Below are positions 2,387-17,679 of a stretch of 37,334 nt of DNA, one piece after another. Below the pieces are notes generated by a model. It was not told the DNA's origin, searched no databases, and saw only the letters and a list, made by a program, of their open reading frames with translations. A program made the translations under genes and the position numbers. Origin of the DNA: a virus; the IMG/VR virus record IMGVR_UViG_3300037488_000828, positions 1-37,334 of that record. One strand, written 5' to 3'. Within the stretch, counting starts at the first letter, position 1. Each line of letters begins with the position of its first letter.

Positions 2387-2896
2387 TCACTTGAGGTTGA
2401 GCCGTTGCCCGCGCTCGCCAAGCGTAGCACCGGGGACTGTAACACCCTTCTCCAGTTCCTCGCGGATGCCGTCCTTGTCGATGGTAATGCTGACCTTCGG
2501 GACGCGGAACGCCTCCGGCAGCGAGGATTCGTCGTTGATGATGACAGGGATCTTGCCGCCGTTGTTCTGCACGGACAACTTGAACCGGGCGGTCTGCACC
2601 TTGAGCCGACCCGTTTCCTTCATCGCCGTCATCAGCGCAAGCCGGAGCCGCGATGCAAGGGCTTCGTCGTCCTGAGCGAGTTTGCGCATCCGCTCCGATT
2701 CCTCGTTGCGGGCGGCAGCGCGGGTTTCAGCCGTCCGGATCAGCGCGGCGTAGTCATCCGCTTTCGCGTCGAACGCCTCGACAAGCAGGGCGGTGTGTTC
2801 CTTGATCGCTTCCGCGGCCTCGCTCGACTCATGCCCGAAGTGATCGAACGCGTCGATCAGCCGCTTCAACTCGTCCGTAATGAGGTACAGGCTCAT
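2387..2896 (-). CDS. Siphovirus Gp157-family protein
   Basis: A 169-residue protein with the layout of the Sipho_Gp157 family. The N-terminal region is a long helical, probably coiled-coil segment (residues 1-100, Glu/Ala/Arg-rich). The C-terminal region has the family features SVQNNGG near 109, a beta stretch IPVIIND, the LPEAFRVPK step and the closing VPGATL. The family was linked to phage resistance in Streptococcus thermophilus. It often neighbours single-strand annealing proteins, as here, with the ERF gene two genes upstream. The start at 2896 overlaps the stop of the preceding gene (ATGA). It is the last gene before a strong terminator. Biochemical role unproven. Confidence 0.85.
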   Translation of the reverse strand: MSLYLITDELKRLIDAFDHFGHESSEAAEAIKEHTALLVEAFDAKADDYAALIRTAETRAAARNEESERMRKLAQDDEALASRLRLALMTAMKETGRLKVQTARFKLSVQNNGGKIPVIINDESSLPEAFRVPKVSITIDKDGIREELEKGVTVPGATLGERGQRLNLK

Positions 2897-3243
2897 TCGT
2901 GTCCTTTCCGGGCATTCGGCCCGATGTTCTGTTCGCCTTCGGCCATCCGCAAACGGAGCAGATGCGCCTCCATCTTCGCGTCATTTACCTCTGCCTTGAG
3001 GCGGGCATTGCAGTCCGCAAGCCGGATAGCCATGTTCTCAATGGCCTTTCCGATAAACTCGTTCTCCTCCCGGCGCGATTCGCGTTCCCTCGCCAACAGG
3101 CTGTCGAGCAGACGCATCCGGTCGCAAGCCGCGATGAACTCGGTCAGCGAGGCTTGGTCGATAAGACCGCCTTCGAACAAGGCGTTGCCCGTATTCGTAA
3201 GTCGGACGATCAGTTCCGTGGTTGTCGGTTGGTAGTCGTTCAT
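2893..3243 (-). CDS. Hypothetical coiled-coil protein between ERF and Gp157 genes
   Basis: A 116-residue, charged and predominantly helical protein (for example RERESRREENEFIGKAIENM), likely a coiled coil. The ATG at 3243 is preceded by GAGGAACCC and lies seven bases after the ERF stop; a longer in-frame start would run into the ERF gene without a ribosome-binding site. Its stop overlaps the Gp157 start. Position suggests a partner in recombination or ssDNA handling, but there is no motif to prove it. Confidence 0.7.
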   Translation of the reverse strand: MNDYQPTTTELIVRLTNTGNALFEGGLIDQASLTEFIAACDRMRLLDSLLARERESRREENEFIGKAIENMAIRLADCNARLKAEVNDAKMEAHLLRLRMAEGEQNIGPNARKGHE

Positions 3244-3250
3244 GGGTTCC

Positions 3251-4027
3251 TCAGAATGGGATCTCGCCCTTGGCAATCAGGTCGCGAAACTTCGGTGGGT
3301 CCTTGATCGACTTTGCCTCGTAGAAGCCCGACTCGTTCCACGACCAACTCAGTTCGATGTTGCTCTCCGCCTTGACATCCTGCAGCATCGACTTCGGTGC
3401 GCTGATCCACGCGGTCGAATGGACGGCGTGTCCGCACAGGAGGGCGATGACATCTCCGCGGTCAACGATCTTTTCGACGCGAACGATATCGTTGCCGGAG
3501 TCCGGCCACTTGCGCGACGAACTCGCCTTCGCTTTTGCTGCGGTCCCGACAGGCTGTGGCGAGAACACATCATCGCGCTTTGCTGCCGGAGCGGGTGCTG
3601 CCGCACGGGGCTTTGGCGGTGGTTCTTTCGCCTGACGATCCTCTTCCGCATCGGTGTCGTCTTCGCCCGTCAGCAAGGCCATCGCGGCCATTTGGTATCT
3701 CCGGAGGTAGGTCACAGCCGCACCGATGTTCTGTGCCGTGGCCTTCTCTGCGAGGGTCATGCCGACCGTGGACTTGACCCATTCGCCGGAGTTGTGGCAG
3801 ATCATGGTCGTGATCGAAACGACCTGCCCTTCCGATTGCACTCCCTGCACGATGGCAAGCCCGTGCTTGGCGAACGGCTCCCGGATCGCGTCGATGTGCG
3901 ATCCGAGCGAGGCGTAGCGGAATCCCCGGAAGTGCGGGTGTTCCTTGTCGAGTGTCGGGTTCTTGACGATCAACTGCGCCTGAGCGAGTGCCGTCACCAG
4001 TTTTGCGATGCTCTCAGACTGCTGCAT
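3251..4027 (-). CDS. ERF-family single-strand annealing recombinase
   Basis: A 258-residue protein. Residues 5-130 match the ERF superfamily pattern: HFRGFRYASLGSHIDAIREP at 32-51, a central beta region with SGEWV at 80-84, and the signature GAAVTYLRRYQMAAMALL at 102-119 followed by the acidic GEDDTDAEED. ERF proteins anneal complementary single strands during phage recombination and genome circularisation. A Pro/Ala-rich linker (135-170) leads to a C-terminal domain of about 80 residues that I do not recognise; it may bind partners or DNA. The ATG at 4027 has AGGAGGAACC upstream. A longer in-frame start would overlap the 69-aa gene and is rejected. Confidence 0.88.
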   Translation of the reverse strand: MQQSESIAKLVTALAQAQLIVKNPTLDKEHPHFRGFRYASLGSHIDAIREPFAKHGLAIVQGVQSEGQVVSITTMICHNSGEWVKSTVGMTLAEKATAQNIGAAVTYLRRYQMAAMALLTGEDDTDAEEDRQAKEPPPKPRAAAPAPAAKRDDVFSPQPVGTAAKAKASSSRKWPDSGNDIVRVEKIVDRGDVIALLCGHAVHSTAWISAPKSMLQDVKAESNIELSWSWNESGFYEAKSIKDPPKFRDLIAKGEIPF

Positions 4028-4252: not shown

Positions 4253-4269
4253 CCGCCGCTGTGCGGCGG
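4253..4269 (-). promoter_or_regulatory. 5' leader hairpin of the ERF unit
   Basis: The transcript reads CCGCCGC-ACA-GCGGCGG, a perfect 7-bp stem located about 4 nt after the -10 box and abutting the Shine-Dalgarno GGAGGA. The sequence is unrelated to the GTCGGG hairpins of the other units but the placement is the same. Confidence 0.75.
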
Positions 4270-4272
4270 GCA

Positions 4273-4301
4273 ACTATACCCTACTCCGATGCAGGTGTCA
4301 A
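4273..4301 (-). promoter_or_regulatory. Sigma70-like promoter for the ERF/Gp157 unit
   Basis: On the minus strand TTGACA (4301-4296), a 17-bp spacer CCTGCATCGGAGTAGGG and TATAGT (4278-4273). It overlaps the 3' end of the RusA coding region, so the promoter is embedded in the preceding gene. Confidence 0.87.
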
Positions 4302-4736
4302 GCCGACCCGTGGATCTTCCACCGCATCGACTGAAATCGCTGCGCCCGGGGCTTCGCCGGACTCGCACCATCTCCGCTCGACATGAAGCCGAACTACTTG
4401 CCTGTCGTTTCGATAAGCAATGCCCGCGAGTGCATCGCAAACCGCACGGGCGAGTTTGTCGCAGTCCGCATAGCCGGGGCGCGGCGGTGAACTCTTCCGG
4501 ACGCTGCCATCTTTGTGGAGATGAGTGACGGGACGCACCCACCGTGCGGAGATGCTGACTTCGACATCACCTTCATGCAGGGGCATTCGCGCAGCCGCCG
4601 CAGCCGCCGCTACGACCGCCCTCCACGGCATGACGCGCTTGGAGTCCTCCAACATCATCACTCGCCCCGTGCGAAGCCTGACGAGCCGCTTGCTGCCTTG
4701 TGGCGCGGGGATGCCGTGTGCGAAGAACTCAGGCAT
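4281..4736 (-). CDS. rusA: RusA-family Holliday-junction resolvase
   Basis: A 151-residue protein with the RusA layout: GIPAPQGSKR at 8-17, DSKRVMPWR at 31-39, and a catalytic cluster with D91 and D93 (DCDKLARAVCDAL, 91-103) and D111 (YRNDRQVV, 108-115). These match the Asp and Lys positions that bind metal in RusA. The enzyme cuts Holliday junctions and branched DNA to ready phage DNA for packaging. The start at 4736 overlaps the upstream gene by eight bases. It ends the long unit begun at 7430, and its last codons contain the next promoter. It joins ERF as the recognisable recombination toolkit. Confidence 0.88.
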   Translation of the reverse strand: MPEFFAHGIPAPQGSKRLVRLRTGRVMMLEDSKRVMPWRAVVAAAAAAARMPLHEGDVEVSISARWVRPVTHLHKDGSVRKSSPPRPGYADCDKLARAVCDALAGIAYRNDRQVVRLHVERRWCESGEAPGAAISVDAVEDPRVGLTPASE

Positions 4737-5505: not shown

Positions 5506-5686
5506 GGGCTTGCTCCGTGTTGGGTTCCCGGCGCACCCCGACCTTGCGGGGTGCTTCGATGACGACCTGAGTTCTGGTCTTGTTGCGGGGTTGAAGATGG
5601 ATGTGGACCGGACCATCGGTGGTGTGCAGTATCAGGTGTTCCTTGTCGGAACGGATCGTGACGACGATGCGGGATTGCTCGTTCAT
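5495..5686 (-). CDS. CsrA-like RNA-binding regulator
   Basis: A 63-residue protein that aligns by eye with CsrA/RsmA. The beta pattern and the segment QVVIEAPRKVGVRRE (40-54) match the family's QVRIGVxAPKEVAVHRE, including the Arg-Glu pair that contacts GGA motifs. CsrA dimers bind GGA in hairpin loops and Shine-Dalgarno sites and change translation and mRNA decay. The N-terminal strand is diverged: the usual LxLTRR is replaced by RIVVTIR. The start at 5686 overlaps the amidotransferase stop (ATGA). Most ribosome-binding sites of this arm carry double GGA (AGGAAGGA), so self-regulation of the phage units is plausible. Alternative: an unrelated small beta protein. Confidence 0.6.
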   Translation of the reverse strand: MNEQSRIVVTIRSDKEHLILHTTDGPVHIHLQPRNKTRTQVVIEAPRKVGVRREPNTEQAHAE

Positions 5687-6417
5687 GCTTCCTCCGTGAA
5701 GTGATCGCTGCCGAGGAACACCCGAGTGGATGCCTGACGCTTCGGCAACTTTCGGATGATGACCTTGCCTTCCCGCCGCATGGGGATGAGGTAGACGCGG
5801 TTGTTAGGGACGGTGTAGACCGTGCCGCGGAGCGCATCCTTCGTAGACGCGAACCATGAGTGGTCGTCGTCCTGCGACCAGTAGATCGGGTTGCCGCGCC
5901 GTGCGAGGATCAGCGCGTCCGGGGTAAGGATGGCCGCGGCGAACGGCGCGTAGTGGTCGATGTCCTTGACCGCCGCCACCACGCGGTCGATGATCGGTCC
6001 CTTGCCCGATTCAATGTGGCGGGCGACGACTTCGGAGTCGCACTCCGTGACGAGCCGCAGGTTTCGCTCCGCCGCGATGGACAGGTAGTTGCCGATGATC
6101 CCGTTGTGGACGAGGTAGGCGGGGTTGCCGCGGTAGGCGAAGCGATGCGGGTGGTTGTTGCGGTTGTCCTCCACCGACCCGTGCGTTGCCCACCGGGTGT
6201 GGCCGATGAGTGCGATGCTCTGCCCGCTGACCGTCATGGTTCCGGGGTGGTCGATAATGGACCCGGGACGCTTGACCCCTGCGATCTCGCCATCCTCCAT
6301 GAGGTAGGCGATGCCGTGGGCGTGGTGTCCGCGCTGCTGTTGCGAGTTGCCGACCGCGTAGAGTTGCGCGAGGTCGGTGAGCGGGCGACCGGAGAAGTGA
6401 CCGAAGATTCCACACAT
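5683..6417 (-). CDS. Class II glutamine amidotransferase (Ntn hydrolase, GlmS-type)
   Basis: A 244-residue stand-alone glutaminase domain. The ATG at 6417 is chosen so that, after Met removal, Cys2 is the N-terminal nucleophile (MCGIFGHF). Other family residues are present: GHTRWATHG at 72-80, NNHPH at 87-91, HNGIIGNY at 104-111 and ECDSEV at 125-130, the glutamine-binding acidic site. It should release ammonia from glutamine. No synthetase or isomerase domain is attached, so the ammonia acceptor must be elsewhere. The amidoligase encoded 35 bases upstream in the same unit is the obvious partner. The AGGAAGGAACC ribosome-binding site is repeated here inside the operon. Confidence 0.9.
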   Translation of the reverse strand: MCGIFGHFSGRPLTDLAQLYAVGNSQQQRGHHAHGIAYLMEDGEIAGVKRPGSIIDHPGTMTVSGQSIALIGHTRWATHGSVEDNRNNHPHRFAYRGNPAYLVHNGIIGNYLSIAAERNLRLVTECDSEVVARHIESGKGPIIDRVVAAVKDIDHYAPFAAAILTPDALILARRGNPIYWSQDDDHSWFASTKDALRGTVYTVPNNRVYLIPMRREGKVIIRKLPKRQASTRVFLGSDHFTEEA

Positions 6418-6452
6418 TGGCAGGTTCCTTCCTGTATTGGGAGATGGAGTGT

Positions 6453-7430
6453 TCATTCGTCCGAAGTGGACGAAAGGTTGGGGACGGTAATGGGGTTGAG
6501 GCCCGCCCGCTGATCGTGGCGGGTTGCAAGTTCGCGGAGCGTGTTCATCGCCCGCCGTGTGGTGTAACGGTCATGGTCGATCTTGCCAAACTTGCGACCG
6601 CCATGTGCTTGCCGCCACAGGTAGAAGATGAGGTAGTTCACCGCAGATTGTCCGCGTGTTTCGGGCTGACCTCCTTCGGGGACATGGAGGAGGGTGCGCT
6701 CCGAAACTTCCCAAGCGGGATTGATGCCGTTCAAGGCCATTTCGACGAGGCTGACGCAGATCCGGACCCACGCGTTGATCTTGTCCGCGTTCAAAGTTCC
6801 GGAGAAAGCGCGGAACTCGACGGTCGGTTGACGACCCTGAAGGTAGTTCGTGACATTGAGCAGGTGGTAACGGTTGGAGAAGAGATCGGTCTGATTGTCA
6901 AACATCAGGTTGCGCTTTTCAGTCGAGTTGGCGACTGACAGGCCGTTCCACCGGATGCCTTTCGCCTTCTTGATCGACCTGCACCATCCGCCGTTTGCGC
7001 GGGACGGAGTTCCGGTCGAGCAGTAGATGCCTTCCTCTACGCGGCTGACGAGCCGATACAGACGGCGCAAGGCTTCGATGCTGTCCGTGGGGAAGTGGAC
7101 ATGGACATGGAGGCCGCAGGACTGATTGACGCGACCTCCCCAAGCCTTGATCTGATCGACCGTAGCCTTGATGTTGTCGAATCCCTCGCCGCCTTTGAGG
7201 ACCGGGGAGACAAACTCGACCGCGGTGCGATTCTCGAAATGGACCGATCCGTCATGGTCCGCCCGCCAGTTGCGTCCGCCGGGAGCCGGAAGTTCCGCGA
7301 CCGGGAAGCCGCACCCGTGACCGCCGATGCGGAGGTTCGGACAGAGGCGGTGGTCGATGCCGCATTCGATCTCGACACCGTAGGTGAGGTCGTTTGCGGA
7401 GTAGGTCGTGGTAGCGGTCGTCGCGGGCAT
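6453..7430 (-). CDS. COOH-NH2 ligase (amidoligase family)
   Basis: A 325-residue protein of the glutamine-synthetase-like amidoligase family (Amidoligase_2). Visible motifs are YGVEIEC at 17-23 (first metal-binding Glu pair), DG at 60-61, VEFVSP at 71-76, the signature CGLHVHV at 105-111, NRYHLLN at 186-192 and VEFRAF at 204-209. Family members use ATP to join a carboxylate to an amine. They occur beside class II amidotransferases in predicted peptide- or metabolite-modifying operons, as here. The ATG at 7430 lies behind promoter cassette D and it is the first of seven genes. The substrate is unknown: host protein, cell-wall peptide, or small molecule. Confidence 0.88.
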   Translation of the reverse strand: MPATTATTTYSANDLTYGVEIECGIDHRLCPNLRIGGHGCGFPVAELPAPGGRNWRADHDGSVHFENRTAVEFVSPVLKGGEGFDNIKATVDQIKAWGGRVNQSCGLHVHVHFPTDSIEALRRLYRLVSRVEEGIYCSTGTPSRANGGWCRSIKKAKGIRWNGLSVANSTEKRNLMFDNQTDLFSNRYHLLNVTNYLQGRQPTVEFRAFSGTLNADKINAWVRICVSLVEMALNGINPAWEVSERTLLHVPEGGQPETRGQSAVNYLIFYLWRQAHGGRKFGKIDHDRYTTRRAMNTLRELATRHDQRAGLNPITVPNLSSTSDE

Positions 7431-7436
7431 AGTCAG

Positions 7437-7516
7437 GTTCCTTCCTGTTTAGGTCGGGGTCAATCCCGACGACATAAGATACCCTGCGCCTGAGTAGGTG
7501 TCAAGCGACACGGGTA
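7437..7516 (-). repeat. Dispersed promoter-leader cassette, copy D
   Basis: Same as copies A and C, with the hairpin at 7453-7470, -10 TATCTT at 7481-7476 and -35 TTGACA at 7504-7499. Similarity stops a few bases after the upstream ACCCGTGTCGC box. Confidence 0.9.
7476..7504 (-). promoter_or_regulatory. Sigma70-like promoter for the amidoligase-to-RusA unit
   Basis: On the minus strand TTGACA, a 17-bp spacer CCTACTCAGGCGCAGGG and TATCTT. It drives seven tightly linked genes down to RusA. Confidence 0.88.
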
Positions 7517-8536: not shown

Positions 8537-8542
8537 ACGGCA

Positions 8543-8571
8543 AAGATACCCTACTCCGCCGAAGGTGTCAA
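8543..8571 (-). promoter_or_regulatory. Sigma70-like promoter for the 8505-7539 unit
   Basis: On the minus strand TTGACA (8571-8566), a 17-bp spacer CCTTCGGCGGAGTAGGG and TATCTT (8548-8543). The -35 box overlaps the stop codon of the 136-aa gene. Confidence 0.87.
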
Positions 8572-8978
8572 GCGGGCGGAGTAGAATTGGACTTGTAAGA
8601 TTTGCTTACAGGTTCCTTGTAGCAGTCCCATCCGCAGATTTCTGCGATCTCCTCGGCGGTGCGACACTCGACATTCTCCCTGCCGACCCTCCGGTACACG
8701 CCGCCAACGGAAGCGCACATCTCGCAGAACTTCCGCCTGACGGCATCGCGCTCTTCGCGCATCTCCGTCAGATCTCGTTCCGCATTCCGGATCGACCACC
8801 GGATTCCTTCGATCAACTCCTGCAACGCGACCGCCTCGGCGCAGAACTGCGTGGTTCGTTGATCCCGCGCACATCCGCCTTGCCGGAGGCGTTCGATTTC
8901 GTCCGCAGCGGCATTCAGATCTTCGGAGGTAACGAATCCTCCCGCGTTGCGGAGTCGCCACGGCAAGTCGTGGATCAT
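8568..8978 (-). CDS. Hypothetical coiled-coil protein
   Basis: A 136-residue protein starting at the ATG at 8978, overlapping the small membrane-protein gene (ATGA). Residues 45-85 are a long charged helix (SIRNAERDLTEMREERDAVR) typical of a coiled coil. Several Cys follow (FCEMCASVGG, then CRTAEEIAEICGWDC), spaced so that a zinc site is possible. A longer in-frame start exists but would overlap the upstream gene fully and lacks a ribosome-binding site. Function unknown. Confidence 0.68.
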   Translation of the reverse strand: MIHDLPWRLRNAGGFVTSEDLNAAADEIERLRQGGCARDQRTTQFCAEAVALQELIEGIRWSIRNAERDLTEMREERDAVRRKFCEMCASVGGVYRRVGRENVECRTAEEIAEICGWDCYKEPVSKSYKSNSTPPA

Positions 8979-9079: not shown

Positions 9080-9099
9080 GATGTTCTCCTTGTGCCGCA

Positions 9100-9129
9100 A
9101 ACATACACCTACGCGGATGCAGGTGTCAA
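9100..9129 (-). promoter_or_regulatory. Leftward promoter of the divergent hub
   Basis: On the minus strand TTGACA (9129-9124), an 18-bp spacer CCTGCATCCGCGTAGGTG and TATGTT (9105-9100). ACACCT and AGGTGT form a 6-bp inverted repeat across the spacer. Unlike the other units, no hairpin follows. Confidence 0.8.
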
Positions 9130-9580
9130 TCGGGAAGGGTAGGAAATCAACGGAAACTTGGGCTTCGGACAAAGAACCGACCCCGGGGGCTTGACTGCCC
9201 TCTCAGGGTCGGTAAACTCTCTCTCGGTCGCCGCCTCGACAGGCTCAAAGTCCGGCGACGACCACATCGAAGCGTGAGCAGCATACCACGCACCCCGGGG
9301 AAGACCACGCCGTCAGTCGGCAACCGCTGCACCCTCGCCGGAGGGTCCGTATCCGGGCAAGAATGGGCGCGGCCACAGGCCGCTCAGACGCAGGGTTTGA
9401 CCCTACCCTGCGCACCGAAAGGTTGCTCTCGCATCGCAGAAGCAGGTGGCCCGCCGAAATGGTGAAAGCGATGCCTTGGTGATACCTCGTCCGGCTCCGG
9501 CGGGCTGATTTTCCCATGTCTCGCCCCGCGAAAGCGGGGTCATGGCGTGTCCTGTCGCCCTCCAACGGGCTGATGGGTGC
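9130..9580. promoter_or_regulatory. Non-coding hub rich in perfect inverted repeats
   Basis: No credible gene lies between 9080 and 9615. The stretch holds perfect inverted repeats at 9176-9183/9206-9213 (8 bp), 9227-9233/9253-9259 (7), 9272-9276/9287-9291 (5), 9309-9312/9318-9321 (4), 9331-9336/9341-9346 (6, tetraloop), 9369-9374/9378-9383 (6), 9389-9396/9405-9412 (8) and 9524-9529/9534-9539 (6, GAAA loop). Two more, 9431-9437/9468-9474 and 9449-9456/9498-9505, interlock like a pseudoknot. ACCCT/AGGGT half-sites recur. It may be a structured RNA, an operator array, or a replication origin. Confidence 0.6.
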
Positions 9581-9897: not shown

Positions 9898-10713
9898 GTG
9901 GAAAACGGCACGACTCAACATCTTCAAAGGTGGCTTCTGTGTGCGACCGTACAGGACCGCATCTCAAGCATGATGACCTGTGCAGCGACGATCCGTGAGC
10001 ATCTGCCGTCTTGGAATGTCGTCGTTGCGACTCAGGAATACACCTCGGTCGAGGATCAGCGGCTCCGCAAAGCCCTTCCCGATGCCATGATCGTCAGCAT
10101 GACCCGCCGGGTGGGGATGCACAGCGCGAAGATGGCCGCACTCCGTCATGTCCGCAGGGTGTGTGGCTCCGACCCGTATGTCGTCTGCTCCATCGACGAC
10201 GACATGGAGTTCCTGCCGCAGACCAACCTTGAGCCGTGCGTTGCCAAGTCGCTTGACCCAATGACCGGATTCGTGACGGCGAACTGGGTGGCGCACCCCA
10301 ACCATCTCGCCAAGAGGAAGATCCGCCATGCGTTCGTGAAACAGCCGATTGTCTACACCGCCGGAGGCATGGTGTTCGACCGCAAGGTGGCGGACATCAT
10401 CTCCGCATTGCCCGATGCAAGGTACTACTCGGACAACAGCAAGTGGTCGATTGCCGCGTACACCGCGGGACTCAGCAACTACCGCTACCTCGGGAGCCTC
10501 GCCATTCACCGGATCTGTCAGAAGGGTGGGCGCAGGGCGTGGGTTATTGACAGCGATGTCGTCCCCCCCGACCCTGAGATGATCTCCGTGCGAGAAGGCC
10601 GACCCATCGCCGGGAAGACCGAATACCTGATCGGGCGTTCGGAGGATCTGACCGACCACGCCCACAACCTGCACAAGATGAACGCGGCCCTCCGCCGTCA
10701 AGGAACAGCATGA
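9898..10713 (+). CDS. Glycosyltransferase-like protein (GT-A fold)
   Basis: A 271-residue protein starting at GTG 9898 behind AAAGG. The N-terminal half alternates beta strands and helices. At 98-104 it has SIDDDME, a DxD metal- and sugar-nucleotide-binding motif of GT-A glycosyltransferases, preceded by a Rossmann-like stretch (WNVVVATQEY). The middle TAGGMVFDRKV and a late His/Arg-rich part fit the acceptor half. Its partners in the operon are ParB-like, methyltransferase-like and PAPS-reductase-like genes, suggesting glycosylation of DNA or of a modified nucleotide. Glycosylation of a virion protein is the alternative. The stop overlaps the next start (ATGA). Confidence 0.68.
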   Translation: MENGTTQHLQRWLLCATVQDRISSMMTCAATIREHLPSWNVVVATQEYTSVEDQRLRKALPDAMIVSMTRRVGMHSAKMAALRHVRRVCGSDPYVVCSIDDDMEFLPQTNLEPCVAKSLDPMTGFVTANWVAHPNHLAKRKIRHAFVKQPIVYTAGGMVFDRKVADIISALPDARYYSDNSKWSIAAYTAGLSNYRYLGSLAIHRICQKGGRRAWVIDSDVVPPDPEMISVREGRPIAGKTEYLIGRSEDLTDHAHNLHKMNAALRRQGTA

Positions 10714-11270
10714 ACATCGAAACCGTTGCCACTTCCGCCCTGATCCCCGACCCGAACAACGCCCGCGTCCATGACGAAGCGAACATCGAAGCCCTCAAGA
10801 ACTCCCTGACGACCTTCGGGCAGCAGAAGCCCATCGTCATCGACCGTGACAACATGGTCGTGGCGGGGAACGGGTTCCTGACCGCCGCGAAGCAACTCGG
10901 GTGGGAGAAGATCGCCGTTGTCCGCACCAACCTGACGGGTGACAAGGCCCGCGCATTCGCCATCGCGGACAACCGCACCGCCGAACTGTCCGATTGGGAT
11001 ACCGCCGCCCTCGCCACGATCCTCAACAGCCTCCCGGACGGCTACCTCGTTTCGACGGGTTGGGATCAGGCCGACCTCGACGCGATGCTCGGGGAAGCCT
11101 TGGAGTCCTACTCCCCGGTCCTGAACCCGGAGTTCGGGTCGAACCGCGTCGATGAGAGCCGTCTTGAGAAGGCCGAAAAGGTGTTCGATGTCGCGCAGAA
11201 GCCCGTCGAGGAAGTCGTCGTTGTTTGCCCGCATTGCGGGGAGGATTTCAAAGTTGACTCCATTTCTTGA
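10710..11270 (+). CDS. ParB/Spo0J-superfamily protein with C-terminal zinc knuckle
   Basis: A 186-residue protein. Residues 1-100 match the ParB N-terminal domain: IPDPNNARVHDEANIEALKNS, QQKPIVID at 38-45, then AGNGFLTAAKQLG at 52-64, where the usual GHGR reads GNGF, and AIADNRTAELSDWD at 84-97. The last residues include CPHCG, half of a zinc ribbon. This superfamily includes partition CTPases, nucleases and sulfiredoxin-like enzymes. Phage copies near terminases often sit in predicted DNA-modification clusters. The His-to-Asn change in the central motif may alter catalysis. The start overlaps the glycosyltransferase stop. Confidence 0.82.
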   Translation: MNIETVATSALIPDPNNARVHDEANIEALKNSLTTFGQQKPIVIDRDNMVVAGNGFLTAAKQLGWEKIAVVRTNLTGDKARAFAIADNRTAELSDWDTAALATILNSLPDGYLVSTGWDQADLDAMLGEALESYSPVLNPEFGSNRVDESRLEKAEKVFDVAQKPVEEVVVVCPHCGEDFKVDSIS

Positions 11271-12024
11271 TAGGCGCGTTTTCGATCACGCCGTCCGAGT
11301 CGCTGAGAAGATGCGGAACGCAGAGTATCGGTTCGCGTCCACGGCTCCCACGAACCCGCATTACTACACACTCCTCTCGACATGGGACAAGGAAGAGGAG
11401 TTTTGGGAATGCGATGATTTCATGCGGGACAACGGATATCCGACCCTTTGGCACGGCCACAAATACATCTACTTCGACATCGACGGGTGGCATTACTGGA
11501 ATCTTCCAAAGCCCGACCGTCAGAGAATCAAACTCATCAACAGGTGCAAGAAGCCGTACCCGAAGCGTGTGCCGTTCTCAGCCCCCAACCCGGAATTGCA
11601 GGAACGCATCGCCCAACGGCTTTGTGACATGAAGTTGGGACGGGTTCTTGAGATCGGGTTCCCCGAATCGGGAACAGTCCTGACTGCCGTGGACATCCAC
11701 CCCGACGATTACATTGGGATTGACACCGATTCCATCGCCGTGTCCCAAGCCGAATACGATCATCCGCAGCATCTTTTTGTCCGGACCTGCCTGTCGGATC
11801 ATTACCGCCGCTACGACACAATCCTCGCCCTTTGGGGTTCCGCATCGCGCATCCCCGGCCACGCGCTCGACCGCATCCCTTTGATGCTGAATCCGGGCGG
11901 TCAAGCGATCCTCATGTTCGATGAAGACCCGGGACTTCAGTTTGGGGAGAAAGACACGCCGTTCCACGGGTTCGTCGTGAGAAAAATCATCAATGCAGAT
12001 CTACACCAAGAAGACCGTCCTTGA
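11254..12024 (+). CDS. SAM-dependent methyltransferase-like protein
   Basis: A 256-residue protein if translation starts at TTG 11254, which has GGGGAGGA nine bases upstream and overlaps the ParB gene by 17 bases. An ATG further upstream would overlap more deeply. The N-terminal part is Trp/Tyr-rich (TLWHGHKYIYFDIDGWHYW). The C-terminal part, from about residue 125, has the class I Rossmann order: GRVLEIGFP (motif I), VDIHPDDYIGIDTD (motif II), ILALWGS (motif IV) and LNPGGQAILMF. A DNA or nucleotide target is suggested by its neighbours. The catalytic motif is not of the classic DPPY type, so the target base is open. Confidence 0.68.
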   Translation: MTPFLDRRVFDHAVRVAEKMRNAEYRFASTAPTNPHYYTLLSTWDKEEEFWECDDFMRDNGYPTLWHGHKYIYFDIDGWHYWNLPKPDRQRIKLINRCKKPYPKRVPFSAPNPELQERIAQRLCDMKLGRVLEIGFPESGTVLTAVDIHPDDYIGIDTDSIAVSQAEYDHPQHLFVRTCLSDHYRRYDTILALWGSASRIPGHALDRIPLMLNPGGQAILMFDEDPGLQFGEKDTPFHGFVVRKIINADLHQEDRP

Positions 12025-13123
12025 AGCCGCGCTCGACCGCGTTCGATACCTCTTCGATGAGTTTCCGAATGTCGTCGTGCAGTTTTCGGGAGGCAAAGAT
12101 TCCACCGCCATCCTCAACATCGCGCTGAAGGTTGCCGAAGAGAAAAACCGCCTTCCGCTCCGGGTGATGTTTATAGATCAGGAGTTGGAGTGGCAAACGG
12201 TCGTGGATCACATCAGGGAAGTGATGTCGGACCCTCGGATCGACCCGTGGTGGCTTCAAATCCCCTTCCTTATCGAAAACGCGACTTCGACCCGGGAGAA
12301 CTTCCTTCTAACTTGGGACCCTGACCGTAAGAATGTTTGGGTGCGTCCCCAAGAACCCAACTCCGTCAAGGTCAACAAGTTCGGAGCAAAGTACTGGAAC
12401 GACCTGTTCCCGAAAATCCCGGCTGTCGAATACCCGGGGCAGAAGATGTGTTTCCTCGGGGGAGTTCGATGCGAGGAATCCCCGACCCGTCGAGTCTGCT
12501 TGACCCACGCGGCCACCTACAAGCACATCACTTTCGGCCGGAAACTCGACTCAGCCGGACTGCATTTCACCTTCTACCCGCTTTACGATTGGTCGCTCAC
12601 GGATGTGTGGAAGTTCATTCACGACAACAAGATACCGTACTGCGGGCTGTACGACGAGATGTTCAAGCAAGGTGTTGCGCTGAACAAAATGCGCGTCAGC
12701 AACTTGAATCACGAAACCGCCGTCCACGCGTTGTTTTTCCTGCAGGAAGTCGAGCCGACAACTTGGAACCTGATCACCCGACGACTCAACGGCATTGCAA
12801 TGGCGGGGCAAATGAAGAAGGAAGCCTTCAACGCCCCGAAAGAACTGCCGTGGATGTTCTCTTCGTGGAGGGAATACCGCGATTACCTACTCGACAAGTT
12901 GATTGACAAATCCGATGCGGAACGGGTCGAGAAGTTCCGCCAAAAGTTCGCTCGGATGGACCGGATGTACGCGAAATACCCAAACCAAGATCAGATGGTG
13001 AAAGTGCATATTGCAGCCATTCTTTGCAACGATTGGCTGATGAACAAGATCACCGCTTGGGAGAACAAAAAAGAACGCTGCCTGTTCCGCAAGTCCCAAA
13101 GGTTGGAGAACCAAGACAAATGA
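11993..13123 (+). CDS. PAPS-reductase/adenylyl-PP-loop enzyme (IbrA-like)
   Basis: A 376-residue protein of the PAPS reductase superfamily with the PP-loop SGGKDST at 32-38, the following FIDQELEW, and a later MCFLGGVRCEES segment with a Cys pair. The C-terminal region (about 240-376) is helical and characteristic of the larger IbrA-type proteins. Such enzymes adenylate or reduce sulfur or other acceptors; DndC of DNA phosphorothioation is a relative. The start overlaps the methyltransferase-like gene by 32 bases. It is followed with a 4-base overlap by a ParB-like IbrB-type gene, the same pairing as IbrA/IbrB known from Escherichia coli prophages. Substrate unknown. Confidence 0.85.
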   Translation: MQIYTKKTVLEAALDRVRYLFDEFPNVVVQFSGGKDSTAILNIALKVAEEKNRLPLRVMFIDQELEWQTVVDHIREVMSDPRIDPWWLQIPFLIENATSTRENFLLTWDPDRKNVWVRPQEPNSVKVNKFGAKYWNDLFPKIPAVEYPGQKMCFLGGVRCEESPTRRVCLTHAATYKHITFGRKLDSAGLHFTFYPLYDWSLTDVWKFIHDNKIPYCGLYDEMFKQGVALNKMRVSNLNHETAVHALFFLQEVEPTTWNLITRRLNGIAMAGQMKKEAFNAPKELPWMFSSWREYRDYLLDKLIDKSDAERVEKFRQKFARMDRMYAKYPNQDQMVKVHIAAILCNDWLMNKITAWENKKERCLFRKSQRLENQDK

Positions 13124-13770
13124 CCGACGACCTAAAGACCACTCTGTCCAATGCAGTTCTGCACTCGGACAACCCGGTCCAAACCCTCTACGAAATCCGC
13201 GAGTTCCTGCATTCCATCTCGCCCCTCCGCGAACAGCCGATTGACTTCGTGCGATGGGTTCCCGTCGAGAAGGTCACGCCAAACGACTACAACCCTAACT
13301 CCGTGGCGCAGCAGGAGATGGGACTCCTATACACCTCCATCATGCACGATGGATACACGCAGCCCGTGGTCACGGTCTACAACCCCGACCGCGACCTGTA
13401 CGAGATCGTGGACGGTTTCCACCGCTACTACACCTGCAAGACCCAAGCCGATGTTCGGGAGCGAAACCTCGGTTTCCTCCCAATCGTCGTCCTCAACAAA
13501 GACATCAACGACCGAATGGCTTCGACCGTCCGCCACAACCGCGCCCGGGGAAAGCACTCGGTCGCAGGAATGTCCAACCTCGTCTTTCAAATGCTCCACA
13601 ACGGGTGGGGGGATGCCGACATCTGCAACGAACTCGGGATGGAGCCGGAGGAACTGCTCCGACTCAAGCACATCACCGGGTTCTCCAAACTCTTTGAGGA
13701 GGCTCAGTACCGAAAGGCATGGGAGAGCCGCGAGCAGATTCGACTCCGCAAGGCGCATGGTGTAGCATGA
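13120..13770 (+). CDS. ParB-superfamily protein (IbrB-like)
   Basis: A 216-residue protein starting at the ATG at 13120, overlapping the PAPS-reductase stop (ATGA) with GGAG upstream. After a helical start it has VRWVPVEKVTPNDYNPN (ParB strand entry), a central EIVDGFHRYY with the DGxHR catalytic-type motif, and VRHNRARGKH. It then continues into an HTH-like segment (GWGDADICNELGMEPEELLRLKHI). It is the natural partner of the PAPS-reductase gene, as IbrB is of IbrA. In contrast with the first ParB-like gene, the DGFHR motif is intact. The pair may act on DNA or nucleotides before packaging. Confidence 0.82.
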   Translation: MTDDLKTTLSNAVLHSDNPVQTLYEIREFLHSISPLREQPIDFVRWVPVEKVTPNDYNPNSVAQQEMGLLYTSIMHDGYTQPVVTVYNPDRDLYEIVDGFHRYYTCKTQADVRERNLGFLPIVVLNKDINDRMASTVRHNRARGKHSVAGMSNLVFQMLHNGWGDADICNELGMEPEELLRLKHITGFSKLFEEAQYRKAWESREQIRLRKAHGVA

Positions 13771-14312
13771 GCAAGGCAGGCAAGAAGGCGACCCGCCCGA
13801 AGCAGGATCAGCCCGACAGCCCCGGGGTAGGGGTAGATGCGCCCAAAAAGACCCCGACCTCCTCAAAGAAGGCCACGGACGCGACCATCGCGCCCGCCAC
13901 AGCCCTCCCCGCCGTCACGCCGCCCTCGGCCCCTCCGAAAGCAGCGACAGGCGTAGGCGAGACTCTTGCCGCCGACCTTGCCGACCCACACCGGAAGCGG
14001 TCAACCTACGCGCTTCTCCAACGCGCCATCGACATCGCCACCGATGTCCCCTATGACGCAATGCGGATCGCTTGCATGACCGCCGTCCGGGATCTGCAAT
14101 CCCCCGACGACCGCATCCGATCCCGCGCCCGCGAGTTCCTGTTCAAGGTGCAGGAGCATGGAATCGGAGCCGCCGTGGGACTCGACCGGATAACCCGACT
14201 TGACGAAGGAACCGCCACGGAGAATGTCGCCGTGGCTTCCATCACGCCCGAAGCCATCGCCGCGGTGGTCACGACCCTCCGGCAGACGGGAGGGGTGCTG
14301 CACCGTGGTTGA
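13767..14312 (+). CDS. Probable terminase small subunit
   Basis: A 181-residue protein directly ahead of and overlapping the large terminase. It starts at the ATG at 13767, overlapping the ParB stop (ATGA). The first 70 residues are Lys/Pro/Ala/Thr-rich and disordered. From about 75 a helical core follows (RKRSTYALLQRAIDIATDV, AMRIACMTAVRDLQSPDDR), then a helical end (TPEAIAAVVTTLRQTGG). Small subunits bind the packaging site and form rings. The identification rests on position and helical composition. No classic HTH is obvious, so confidence is moderate. Confidence 0.65.
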   Translation: MSKAGKKATRPKQDQPDSPGVGVDAPKKTPTSSKKATDATIAPATALPAVTPPSAPPKAATGVGETLAADLADPHRKRSTYALLQRAIDIATDVPYDAMRIACMTAVRDLQSPDDRIRSRAREFLFKVQEHGIGAAVGLDRITRLDEGTATENVAVASITPEAIAAVVTTLRQTGGVLHRG

Positions 14313-15786
14313 CGGGTTGGAAGATAAACCTCCACTTCTGAGCGTTTCGGAGGCTATCGAAGAAGCCCGCCGGAATCCCCTCGCTTTCATCTCTTTGGTA
14401 ATGCAGCGGCCAATCGGGCCGATCCATGCCCTGCTCGTTTCCTACCTCCTAGACGAGCGGGACTGCTACTGCGAACTTCCCCGCGGACATGGCAAGACGA
14501 CGACCGGGGCATTGACAGCCGCATGGCTCCTCGGTCATTACCCGCAACTCCGCATCAAAATCCTCGGCTCGACCGATGGCGAGGCTTCCAAGACCGCCGG
14601 GATGATCCGCGAGATCATCGAATCCGACCGCTACCGCGCCATCTTCCCCCACACCCGCATCCGCCCGCTTGACACCTCCAAGGCCAAGTGGCGGCTTGTC
14701 GGCGCAAGAGAGGGTGCGCGTGACGCGACCGTCGAGGCGATGGGAGTCATGGGCCGCGCAGGTGGTCGATTCGACCTCCTGTGGACCGACGACATCTCCG
14801 ACCTGCGAAACGCCGTTCTGATCCCCGCGGAGCGTGACAAGGTCAAGGAAGCCTACAACTCCAACTGGATGCCCATGCGGGACATCGCATCGGGCGGGCC
14901 GTTCGTCCCCCGGGTGTGGAACACCGCGACCCCGTACCACACCGACGACATAACGGGCGACCTCCGCCGAATCCACAGGGATTCCGGCACGATCCTCCGA
15001 TTGCCATGCCGTGTCGAGGGTGGGCAGAAAGTCAGCCCGTGGCCGGAGATCTTCGACCACAGCCAGTTGCAGGCTCAGTACGACCGCATGGGCGCGATGG
15101 CGTATGCCCGCGCCTATGAACTCGTCCCCCTGTCAAGCGACCTGCTGATCTTCCGACCGGAGTGGTTCGGGTATTACCGACCCGATGCGTTGCCAAAGAT
15201 CACGCGGACGGTTGCCGCGATTGATTGGGGTTACGGGCGAGCGGAACAGAGCCGCGCCTCGCCCGACTACAGCGTGTGCATCGTCGGAGAGATCGACCAT
15301 GACCGTAACCTGTACCTGACCGATGTCCTCCGCGTCCGCGAGGCGTTCCCGACCTTCGCACGGATGGTGGGGAGTCTCCTCGACCGCCGCGGCGTTTCGG
15401 TGGTCATGGCGGAAGCGAATGGACCGCAACGCGGCATCTTCGACCAGTTCACCACGATGACCAACTTCCCGACCGTTGCGGTCGAGCGCAATCACGACAA
15501 GCACTTGAGAGCCGCCGGATCACAGCCGTTCGTGCAATCCGGCAAACTCCGGTTCCCGACCGACGAAAGTGGAAAGGTGTTGCCATCGTTCCAACCCGTC
15601 ATTGATGAGATGACCGCCTTCCCCGCCGCCGCGCACGACGACACCGTCGATGTGGTCGTTGACTTGTGCGCCGAGGCCACCCGCGGTTCGCTGTCAATGA
15701 GCGACCTCGCAGCGACCCGTTTCGCCAAGCCCGACCCCGCAGCGTTCTTCAAGCAGACCCGGGCGAAGCGTCCGCTGTTTGGGTGA
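14305..15786 (+). CDS. terL: Terminase large subunit
   Basis: A 493-residue packaging motor. The start is GTG 14305 (GGGAGGGG upstream), overlapping the small-subunit gene by eight bases. The ATPase domain has Walker A LPRGHGKTT at 58-66 and Walker B FDLLWTDD at 156-163. The nuclease domain begins with AAIDWGYG, and the final conserved acidic site is AHDDTVD near residue 440. The protein pumps DNA into the prohead and cuts concatemers. It ends 12 bases before the next ATG. The neighbouring portal and gpF-type genes fit a Mu-like head module combined with siphovirus tail genes. Confidence 0.93.
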   Translation: MVDGLEDKPPLLSVSEAIEEARRNPLAFISLVMQRPIGPIHALLVSYLLDERDCYCELPRGHGKTTTGALTAAWLLGHYPQLRIKILGSTDGEASKTAGMIREIIESDRYRAIFPHTRIRPLDTSKAKWRLVGAREGARDATVEAMGVMGRAGGRFDLLWTDDISDLRNAVLIPAERDKVKEAYNSNWMPMRDIASGGPFVPRVWNTATPYHTDDITGDLRRIHRDSGTILRLPCRVEGGQKVSPWPEIFDHSQLQAQYDRMGAMAYARAYELVPLSSDLLIFRPEWFGYYRPDALPKITRTVAAIDWGYGRAEQSRASPDYSVCIVGEIDHDRNLYLTDVLRVREAFPTFARMVGSLLDRRGVSVVMAEANGPQRGIFDQFTTMTNFPTVAVERNHDKHLRAAGSQPFVQSGKLRFPTDESGKVLPSFQPVIDEMTAFPAAAHDDTVDVVVDLCAEATRGSLSMSDLAATRFAKPDPAAFFKQTRAKRPLFG

Positions 15787-15798: not shown

Positions 15799-17679
15799 AT
15801 GGCCGACATCGACTTCCGACCGACTCAGCAGATGGCGGACAACGCCGCCCGCGGACTTGAACTGCGGAAGAAACATGGTCGCGGTGGCACGGCGGTAGGT
15901 GTGGCCCGCGCCCGCGACATCAGCAACCGCAAGAATCTGTCGGCTTCGACGGTCAAGCGGATGCACTCATTCTTCTCCCGCCATGAGGGCAATCAGGCAG
16001 GAGGAGAGGACGATGCCGGATACATCGCGTGGCTTCTGTGGGGCGGTGACGCGGGCAAGTCGTGGTCAAAGCGAAAGGTCGATCAGGTCGACGGAAAGAG
16101 CGAAAACTCTATGAACAACTCGACGCAAGAAATCATTGATCGTTACAACGAACTCAAGTCGCAGCCGAAGGCGAGGGTCTTTGACTTATGGAAGTCGAAG
16201 ATTCAGCGCGGTCGAGTCTCAATCGGAGTACAGAAGATCAGCGATTGGGACAAGGGATCGCTTATCTCGGACATCATTCGCGCTGAGTTTGGAGACAGAG
16301 CGGTAGACGCGGCGTTCGGATTTTCCCGTCCCGGCACGAAGGCGATCAACGCCAATGTCGATTTCAAGCCGTCCCATGAGGAGATGTACGAGTACACCAC
16401 CGGGAACAAGCCCCGTGGCCGTGGATCGTGGATCTTCGTCGCCCCCGATGGTTCGCTCGTTTACGCTCCGCACGGGCTGACCTACTCCCAAGCGAAGGCG
16501 TGGTTGAAGAAGAACGCGACGATTAGCGGGCAGTACAAGGTCGCCACTCAGCGACCGGGAACTGCGGCGAAGTTCTCCCGTCCCGCCCGCTTCTCTCGGT
16601 GGGAGGATAGGAAGCAAAGCGGTTGGGGCGATCTTTCAAGGTCGTACCACGCCACGATCAACGGCACGGATTGGGAGATTGTGGTGGACGCATCTACTGG
16701 GAAGGGAACGCTTATGCGAGCGACCGCAAGCGGCCCCAAGGTTGTTCGGGAAGGAACTGTCGATGAGTTGAAGCGATACGCGGAAACGGCGAAGGCATCC
16801 CGCCCCGGCGCGAAGGCGAAGTTTGGATTTGGCGACGGTTTCGTGGTCGAGGGCTATGTCGGCAACACAATCAGGGGGAGACAACCCGCTCGCACAATGG
16901 AAGGAGCAGAGCATTACGCAACGGTGATGCTTGCAAGCATTAAGAGTGGCAAAACAAACGGACAGCCCGTCAAGGTTGAGATTCAAAAAGTCAAGGCGTA
17001 CGAGCCACAGGGAGTCATCAAAACTCTTCACGCCCGCACGGGCGCGAAGGCGGAGTTTGATCGTCGTGTTGAACTTGACAAATGGACAAGTCCAAAGGGG
17101 ACGCGATACACCGCAGGATTTCATGTGGAAGGCGGCGGAACCTCGTTTGCGCCGTTTGTCTCGGCTACCTACTTAGACGGCAGCGAGCAACTGATGAGCG
17201 GGAACTCGCCATCCTTTAGGACGGAAAATGGCGCACGGAAATGGCTCGCCAAGTTCATGGAACGAATGTATTCCCGTACTGGGACTTTCTTGCGCCCCGG
17301 CACGAAAGCGAAGTTCGGGTCCGACCGACTCGCCAAGAGTCTGTACGACACGATGCACCGCTTCTTCCATCACGATGAACGCGGACGCGCCCTGCTCAAG
17401 AAGTACGGAGAACGCGCCGTGGACAACGCGATCACCGCGGTTGCAAACGATTACGCCGCCCGGAGCGAGGAGGGTCATGGCATCGGGTCGAGCGACATCA
17501 ACGCGATGATCCGCGCTGCGATCCGCGACATGGGTGGCGATGGGAAGTTCTCCCGCCCCGGCGCGAAGAAGCGAAACGACCTGACGGAAGCCTGTTGGGA
17601 AGGCTACGAGGCCGTAGGGACCAAGAAGAAGGACGGCAAGACCGTCCCCAACTGCGTTCCGAAGAAGGCGAAGCCATGA
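15799..17679 (+). CDS. Modular 626-aa protein with RPGxKAKF linkers, possible polyprotein
   Basis: The N-terminal module (1-95) has RGGTAVGVARARDISN and STVKRMHSFFSRHE, a module I recall from phage head regions. The end (595-626) has CWEGYEAVGTKKKDGKTVPNCV, also a recurring phage tail-piece. Between them the motif FSRPGTKA (175-182), RPGTAAKFSRPARF (252-265), SRPGAKAKF (334-342), RTGAKAEF (413-420), RPGTKAKF (499-506) and FSRPGAKK (584-591) recurs, separating segments of about 65-75 residues. This looks like domain beads on a linker string, or protease sites in a polyprotein. The start lacks a Shine-Dalgarno and has TACGAT six bases upstream. Middle modules look less GC-rich than the ends. 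Confidence 0.75.
   Translation: MADIDFRPTQQMADNAARGLELRKKHGRGGTAVGVARARDISNRKNLSASTVKRMHSFFSRHEGNQAGGEDDAGYIAWLLWGGDAGKSWSKRKVDQVDGKSENSMNNSTQEIIDRYNELKSQPKARVFDLWKSKIQRGRVSIGVQKISDWDKGSLISDIIRAEFGDRAVDAAFGFSRPGTKAINANVDFKPSHEEMYEYTTGNKPRGRGSWIFVAPDGSLVYAPHGLTYSQAKAWLKKNATISGQYKVATQRPGTAAKFSRPARFSRWEDRKQSGWGDLSRSYHATINGTDWEIVVDASTGKGTLMRATASGPKVVREGTVDELKRYAETAKASRPGAKAKFGFGDGFVVEGYVGNTIRGRQPARTMEGAEHYATVMLASIKSGKTNGQPVKVEIQKVKAYEPQGVIKTLHARTGAKAEFDRRVELDKWTSPKGTRYTAGFHVEGGGTSFAPFVSATYLDGSEQLMSGNSPSFRTENGARKWLAKFMERMYSRTGTFLRPGTKAKFGSDRLAKSLYDTMHRFFHHDERGRALLKKYGERAVDNAITAVANDYAARSEEGHGIGSSDINAMIRAAIRDMGGDGKFSRPGAKKRNDLTEACWEGYEAVGTKKKDGKTVPNCVPKKAKP

Follow-up and report, generated by a model that had tools for sequence, protein, structure and literature searches.

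What is the role of the five genes that stand directly before the terminase genes in IMG/VR virus record IMGVR_UViG_3300037488_000828? The window analysed here is the whole of that record (37,334 bases). All five genes lie on the plus strand, overlapping or almost so, and encode a glycosyltransferase-like protein, two ParB-like proteins (ParB1 and IbrB), a methyltransferase-like protein and the PP-loop protein IbrA. The gene set is common to at least 65 different viruses, and we interpret it as a recurrent phage module that covalently modifies its target in several steps. The target would most likely be the phage's own DNA, modified once it has been replicated and either before packaging or in the course of it. 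We put the probability of this reading at about 0.6. The genes and their neighbours are as follows.

9898–10713, plus strand: GT-A/GT2-type glycosyltransferase (GT)-like protein with a DDD motif (module type GTw); PF00535 match
10710–11270, plus strand: ParB1, a ParB-fold N-terminal domain with a C-terminal CPHC zinc-ribbon-like end; phrog_620
11311–12024, plus strand: fusion of N-dom to a class-I S-adenosylmethionine (SAM) methyltransferase domain; N-dom profile E 2e-30, Foldseek
11993–13123, plus strand: IbrA, a PP-loop (SGGKDS) ATP-pyrophosphatase with DUF3440; PF01507, PF11922, phrog_2302
13120–13770, plus strand: IbrB, a ParB/sulfiredoxin-fold protein; phrog_2159
13719–14312, plus strand: putative small terminase, named by position only, without a family match
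14200–15786, plus strand: TerL, terminase large subunit (14200 is where the open reading frame (ORF) opens; exact start uncertain); phrog_38 E 4e-62, PF17289, PF03237

The GT and ParB1 genes overlap by 4 nt. IbrA and IbrB meet in an ATGA overlap, the IbrB ATG at 13120 lying on the IbrA stop (the IbrB ORF opens at 13024). The true start of the fusion gene is unsure: its ORF opens at 11152, and 11311 is the first in-frame ATG past the ParB1 stop. A Mu-type portal gene comes after TerL. The cassette had been noticed from the letters alone (the sequence-only reading), with coordinates that prove nearly right; the IbrA/IbrB pair recognized there is indeed a DUF3440 PP-loop protein adjoining a phrog_2159-type ParB-fold protein.

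The gene set in other viruses

A single-protein IbrA scan of viral contigs finds zero relatives. With an IbrA alignment as the query, 80 viral loci are retrieved from viral contigs; the closest 16 are 41–49% identical, and nearly all of these have ParB1, N-dom and IbrB nearby. As an independent test, viral contigs were searched with N-dom alone, and the other genes were scored with their own profiles. This query also gives 80 viral loci, with IbrA in 78, IbrB in 75 and ParB1-type proteins in 77 (the ParB1 profile cross-matches IbrB, and the count of separate ParB1 genes given below is therefore preferable). Removal of loci with >90% identical IbrA leaves 65 module loci, with IbrB in 63 and a separate ParB1 in 62. 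The cassette is therefore more than a chance cluster.

In 37 of the 44 module loci that extend far enough, a TerL gene starts on the downstream side of IbrA at a distance of at most 4.5 kb. In the controls, which are IbrA loci without N-dom, it lies within that distance in 13 of 39, a comparison that may favour module loci because the TerL profiles were built from module phages. In 15 of 18 records, TerL is also recognized by the terminase model of Pfam. Thus, the module has a fixed core of ParB1, N-dom, IbrA and IbrB, located just upstream of the terminase. IbrA loci without N-dom differ from it in that they are far less often beside TerL and mostly lack the tailoring set described below.

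Tailoring enzymes are interchangeable at fixed positions

Class-I methyltransferases of the type MT25, in many cases joined to N-dom like that of the window, are present in 31/65 module loci versus 1/64 control IbrA loci. The corresponding counts are 27/65 versus 10/64 for GNAT acetyltransferases and 14/65 versus 1/64 for small GT-like proteins (GT14); the window-type GT (GTw) is found in 11/65 module loci. DPPW/N6_N4 methyltransferases are present in 30/65 module loci versus 2/64 controls, a class into which "SEPP" and "DPPW" methyltransferases were merged since their profiles cross-match, despite seemingly separate slots. The DPPW proteins match the DNA methylase family PF01555 (E 3e-7).

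Some of these enzymes hardly ever meet. MT25 and GNAT share a locus in 2 of 65 cases (Fisher p = 3e-8), and a DPPW methyltransferase and GTw in none of 65 (p = 5e-4). On the IbrA tree, MT25 and GNAT change at least 9 times. In sister cassettes, the replacement is one for one and takes place at the same position among the core genes: L137 reads N-dom-MT25/GT/IbrA and L157 reads N-dom/GNAT/GT/IbrA; IbrB is followed by a GT in L115 and by DPPW in L116; and L132 has N-dom-MT25 where L115 and L116 have N-dom/GNAT. In the window, the tailoring set consists of the methyltransferase-fold domain fused to N-dom and the GT-A-like glycosyltransferase. The latter falls just under the Pfam cut-off for PF00535 (E 7.5e-5; 23.2 bits against 23.3). 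Its DDD motif is kept in 100% of 11 module homologues, and it is 32–34% identical to homologues in L016, L022 and L023.

Glycosyltransferases, GNAT proteins and methyltransferases are typical for glycan decoration, and two structural neighbours of the window methyltransferase, NodS and TylM1, act on amino sugars. The module could accordingly glycosylate or otherwise modify a virion or host protein, or host surface glycans (seroconversion). We regard this as very unlikely, because a GT is detected in less than half of the module loci (GT14 and GTw as counted above) and because it would account neither for the ParB proteins and the PP-loop enzyme nor for the position beside the terminase.

N-dom and the methyltransferase domain

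The methyltransferase-like gene encodes two parts, N-dom (~80 residues, about 11311–11550) and a degenerate class-I methyltransferase. N-dom is a new domain. It has zero sequence matches in Pfam, PHROG or the PDB, and one N-dom query gives zero matches among 50,697 named phage records. Its predicted structure is very confident (predicted local distance difference test score, pLDDT, 93.8), and a fold search with this model finds one viral model and zero PDB matches (best E 0.27). The family shows the pattern FAKTMPxxPHYYTL...KYWTMGxPxxxTILINR, and its members are standalone or fused.

The methyltransferase domain of the window is without a family match by sequence, and tblastn with it and with the window GT gives zero matches among the same named phage records. 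A Foldseek search with the AlphaFold2 model of the fusion protein (pLDDT 76) identifies a class-I methyltransferase fold (best E 2.6e-6, probability 1.00); the template modelling score is about 0.4 by query length, since the query includes N-dom. The nearest matches are PmtA, TehB and NodS, with TylM1 also listed, and the fold is nearest to small-molecule N-methyltransferases. Motif I of the window protein is degenerate, reading VLEIGFPESG versus VLDIGCGTG, and lacks the GxGxG of class-I SAM methyltransferases; in an alignment of 30 homologues, nearly all of the other 29 retain a GCGxG-like motif.

N-dom homologues are also found in cellular contigs from metagenome-assembled genomes. N-dom is fused to an ADP-ribosylglycohydrolase in L171 (934–2388) and to a methyltransferase in L173 (9178–10059). 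It lies beside a type I methylase and a NucS-like gene in L172 (9935–10234) and beside a McrBC-like gene in L174 (9926–10228), both of which have, by eye, a restriction-gene look.

These relationships raise the possibility that what the module produces or decorates is a small molecule, a nucleotide or RNA, such as a decoy or signal nucleotide or tRNA, with IbrA as the adenylylating enzyme and GT, methyltransferase and GNAT proteins as decorators. The fold neighbours NodS, TylM1 and PmtA and the ADP-ribosylglycohydrolase fusion are in line with it, as are the small-molecule substrates of the nearest solved relatives of IbrA (FAD synthase, CysD and CysH). The presence of two ParB-family proteins in almost all cassettes, the adjacency to the terminase and the match of DPPW proteins to DNA methylases point instead to DNA, and we consider a small-molecule or RNA product unlikely.

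IbrA as a candidate initiating enzyme

IbrA matches PF01507 (E 2e-17), PF11922 (E 9e-8) and phrog_2302 (E 2e-81). Its PP-loop, SGGKDS, is essentially invariant (98–100% in 88 homologues), as expected for the PP-loop fold. FAD synthase, CysD and CysH are the nearest solved sequences, the first two being adenylyl transferases. Cysteines are not conserved: the best column reaches at most 51% across the 88 homologues, and none is kept throughout the 18 members of the window clade. The catalytic cysteine of CysH is missing accordingly, and NCBIfam CysH/PAPS-reductase (PAPS, 3'-phosphoadenosine 5'-phosphosulfate) models score IbrA far below cut-off.

Initiating enzymes and desulfurases were sought in 20 module records, among them the window and the whole genome of Microbacterium phage Hendrix; since most of the records are fragments, an absence is reliable only in Hendrix and, provided that it is complete, in the window. 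None of these records has a cysteine desulfurase (a host desulfurase could still supply the function), a thymidylate-synthase-type hydroxymethylase (PF00303) or a C5-cytosine methyltransferase (PF00145). Tet_JBP (PF12851) gives no match above cut-off and one sub-cut-off match outside the window.

The sequence-only reading had allowed for backbone modification. DNA phosphorothioation, or another sulfur-based backbone modification of the DndC type, would agree with the weak matches of IbrA to DndC profiles (PADLOC, E 2e-11; TIGR03183, E 5e-9, far below its cut-off). DndC/SspD proteins are recognized by conserved cysteines and a cysteine desulfurase partner, and neither is seen here. Because the 88 IbrA sequences share no conserved cysteine and the records searched lack a cysteine desulfurase, phosphorothioation and PAPS reduction are both disfavoured as the probable role of IbrA. 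Sulfur chemistry would also leave the tailoring enzymes without a role, and we give it hardly any credence.

Alternatively, IbrA and IbrB may regulate late genes, as reported for E. coli eib genes, next to unrelated accessory genes. The two are named activators of prophage genes and are so labelled in a survey table (PMC4490671), and the module is located at the start of the late operon. Regulation alone would not require the fully conserved PP-loop, nor N-dom and tailoring enzymes whose co-occurrence with IbrA far exceeds that in controls and which replace one another singly at set positions. We therefore find this explanation quite unlikely.

One module locus, L025, has two different IbrA genes (656–1750 and 2425–3591) next to a single IbrB. 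Two related cassettes, and only these, have directly before IbrA an ORF that resembles a 2-oxoglutarate-Fe(II) oxygenase (HxD...DTHSPHQ; L011 3–500, L018 9483–9998). No profile confirms this candidate, and we do not retain it.

The two ParB-family proteins

ParB1 belongs to phrog_620 (E 2e-45). The sequence-only reading noted that its P-motif is GNGF where GHGR would be expected, and took the loss of the central histidine as the deviation. The motif is real (GNGF in place of GHxR/GNxR), but the histidine-to-asparagine change is common: GNMR occurs in 16 and GNQR in 2 of 70 homologues. The rare feature is the loss of the arginine, which is kept in 66 of the 70 and missing in 4. This arginine (GxxR) is required for nucleoside triphosphate (NTP) binding in tested ParB folds (PMC12704722), and the window ParB1 is thus without the residue that marks the ParB CTP/NTP-binding switch. 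IbrB (phrog_2159, E 6e-71) has the P-motif GFHR, with the arginine kept in 100% of 59 homologues, and an HNRARGKH motif.

Related systems

The sequence-only reading took this exact combination of genes to be unfamiliar. We likewise found no paper that describes the module as such in our literature search, but Hendrix (NC_047977; genes 154–158 and 1–5) carries nearly the same set and is its best-known counterpart, with relatives Rasputia, Leaf and Dewdrop. At the end of the Hendrix record are a GT-like protein (gp154), a GT (gp155), an N-dom/methyltransferase (gp156), a GNAT (gp157) and IbrA (gp158); at its start are IbrB (gp1; 51% identity by BLAST), two ParB-zinc-ribbon proteins, gp4 and TerL. 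The two groups form one cluster, since the genome is circularly permuted (PMC7302621). Hendrix differs from the window in having a GNAT in addition to the methyltransferase and two ParB1 copies, and gp155 cannot be aligned to the window GT. The literature searched contains no description of a DNA modification in Hendrix.

Other phages have some of the genes. Cluster B3 mycobacteriophages such as Heathcliff (KJ194584) have, in this order, ParB, two small genes, IbrA, IbrB and TerL at the left genome end; unlike in the window, neither N-dom nor a tailoring enzyme is annotated, and IbrA is just 27% identical. Flavobacterium, Streptococcus and other phages have the phrog_2302/phrog_2159 IbrA/IbrB pair side by side, as in the window.

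Known hypermodification islands, based on 5-hydroxymethyluracil or 5-hydroxymethylcytosine, TET, CmoX/CmoY or Mom, resemble the module in combining an initiator with interchangeable GT, methyltransferase and GNAT tailoring enzymes, and ParB-domain genes also occur near CmoX (PMC12783734). The module differs from them in that the hydroxymethylase, the C5-methyltransferase and an above-cut-off TET protein are missing from the 20 records, and a PP-loop initiator is proposed in their place. Because of its anatomy, namely a conserved core, swappable tailoring enzymes and adjacency to the terminase, it is well supported that the module functions in the manner of a hypermodification island. This island exists as a conserved unit and has largely escaped description. 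More tentatively, and with somewhat less than even confidence in the proposal as a whole, it may represent a new class of phage DNA hypermodification, in which a cysteine-free PP-loop IbrA initiates together with ParB/sulfiredoxin proteins and N-dom, hydroxymethylation, TET oxidation, carboxymethylation and sulfur transfer play no part, and the product is diversified by single-enzyme swaps.

Palindrome avoidance and the substrate

The sequence-only reading suggested that the modification may act against host nucleases. In the window, ACGT and AGCT are both absent, where a Markov model predicts about 111 and 69 and dinucleotide shuffling predicts 162 and 87. Throughout the window genome, 6-bp palindromes are at 0.31 of expectation. 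Among the module loci that span 10 kb or more, 28 of 46 wholly lack at least one 4-bp palindrome, versus 12 of 43 controls (p = 0.003), and the missing site varies by locus: GATC in L116 (0/41), CATG in L137 (0/46) and CCGG in L162 (0/47).

Several points weigh against a DNA-modifying module. An anti-restriction role predicts relaxed palindrome avoidance; we tested for this, and it is absent, module loci avoiding palindromes somewhat more than controls (median palindromic 4-mer log observed/expected -0.169 versus -0.121, p = 0.02). Since avoidance is unrelaxed and the window lacks any ACGT or AGCT, a general shield against restriction enzymes is unlikely, and the suggested action against host nucleases finds no support. 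This leaves three possibilities: restriction enzymes of this kind tolerate the modification, the modification is infrequent or incomplete, or the module acts on something other than DNA. In the window, ParB1 and the methyltransferase are both without key motif residues. The exclusivity p-values ignore ancestry; independent pairs (0 same, about 4 opposite) go in the same direction and are too few for significance. On the IbrA tree, the placement of several rows has poor support. The chemistry of each slot is predicted from fold class only. The earlier idea of a modification island near packaging agrees well with the core, the swaps and the adjacency to TerL, and we infer that its substrate is DNA.

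The missing palindromes could also mean that sequence-specific DNA cleavage comes with the module, either as an activity that the phage gains or as one to which it becomes exposed, and that certain 4-bp palindromes must therefore be absent. The excess of such gaps in module loci and the zero counts in the window are what this would produce. However, such gaps usually arise from host restriction-modification, the identity of the missing palindrome changes from one locus to another with no evident tie to cassette content, and a nuclease domain is not seen in the module. We judge this origin highly improbable.

Other features of the window

A 626-aa protein with several RPGTKAKF-like linker repeats between segments is encoded after TerL (15799–17679), and homologues follow TerL in L013, L014, L021, L108 and L117. 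On the minus strand of the early region (5683–7430), a class-II glutamine amidotransferase (GATase) gene lies beside an Amidoligase_2 gene (PF12224, E 2e-23). We considered both as module parts and rejected them: Amidoligase_2 is near 6 module loci only, and GATase is near none by sequence. An element of ~35 nt occurs seven times upstream of minus-strand early genes (247–281, 624–658, 2268–2302, 4269–4303, 7472–7506, 8539–8573 and 9097–9131). On the minus strand it has the look of a sigma70-type promoter (TTGACA-like, 17-nt spacer, TATnTT-like), and a longer conserved block adjoins most copies.

A possible pathway and its implications

In a DNA-modifying module, IbrB and ParB1 would bind DNA or NTP and position the enzyme on DNA. 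IbrA would adenylylate a carbonyl or phosphate oxygen, or a small donor, as TilS, CysD and FAD synthase do, and would install a group, probably bearing an amine. The first slot may then N-methylate or N-acylate this group, and the second may methylate or glycosylate it. Alternative N-methylation and N-acylation of one amine would be the simplest chemistry for the MT25/GNAT swap. Since the window has degenerate versions of both the NTP motif of ParB1 and motif I of the methyltransferase, glycosylation may be the main decoration that survives there.

IbrA/IbrB pairs are common in phages, where they are mostly labelled "PAPS reductase" and are without a known chemistry. The fixed core with swappable decorations makes the order of the pathway testable, and Hendrix, a cultured module phage grown on a laboratory strain of Microbacterium (M. 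foliorum), offers virion DNA for direct analysis. Should the module act on DNA, it would modify by a route that does not depend on any of the known initiating enzymes, and new DNA-modifying enzymes could be drawn from it.

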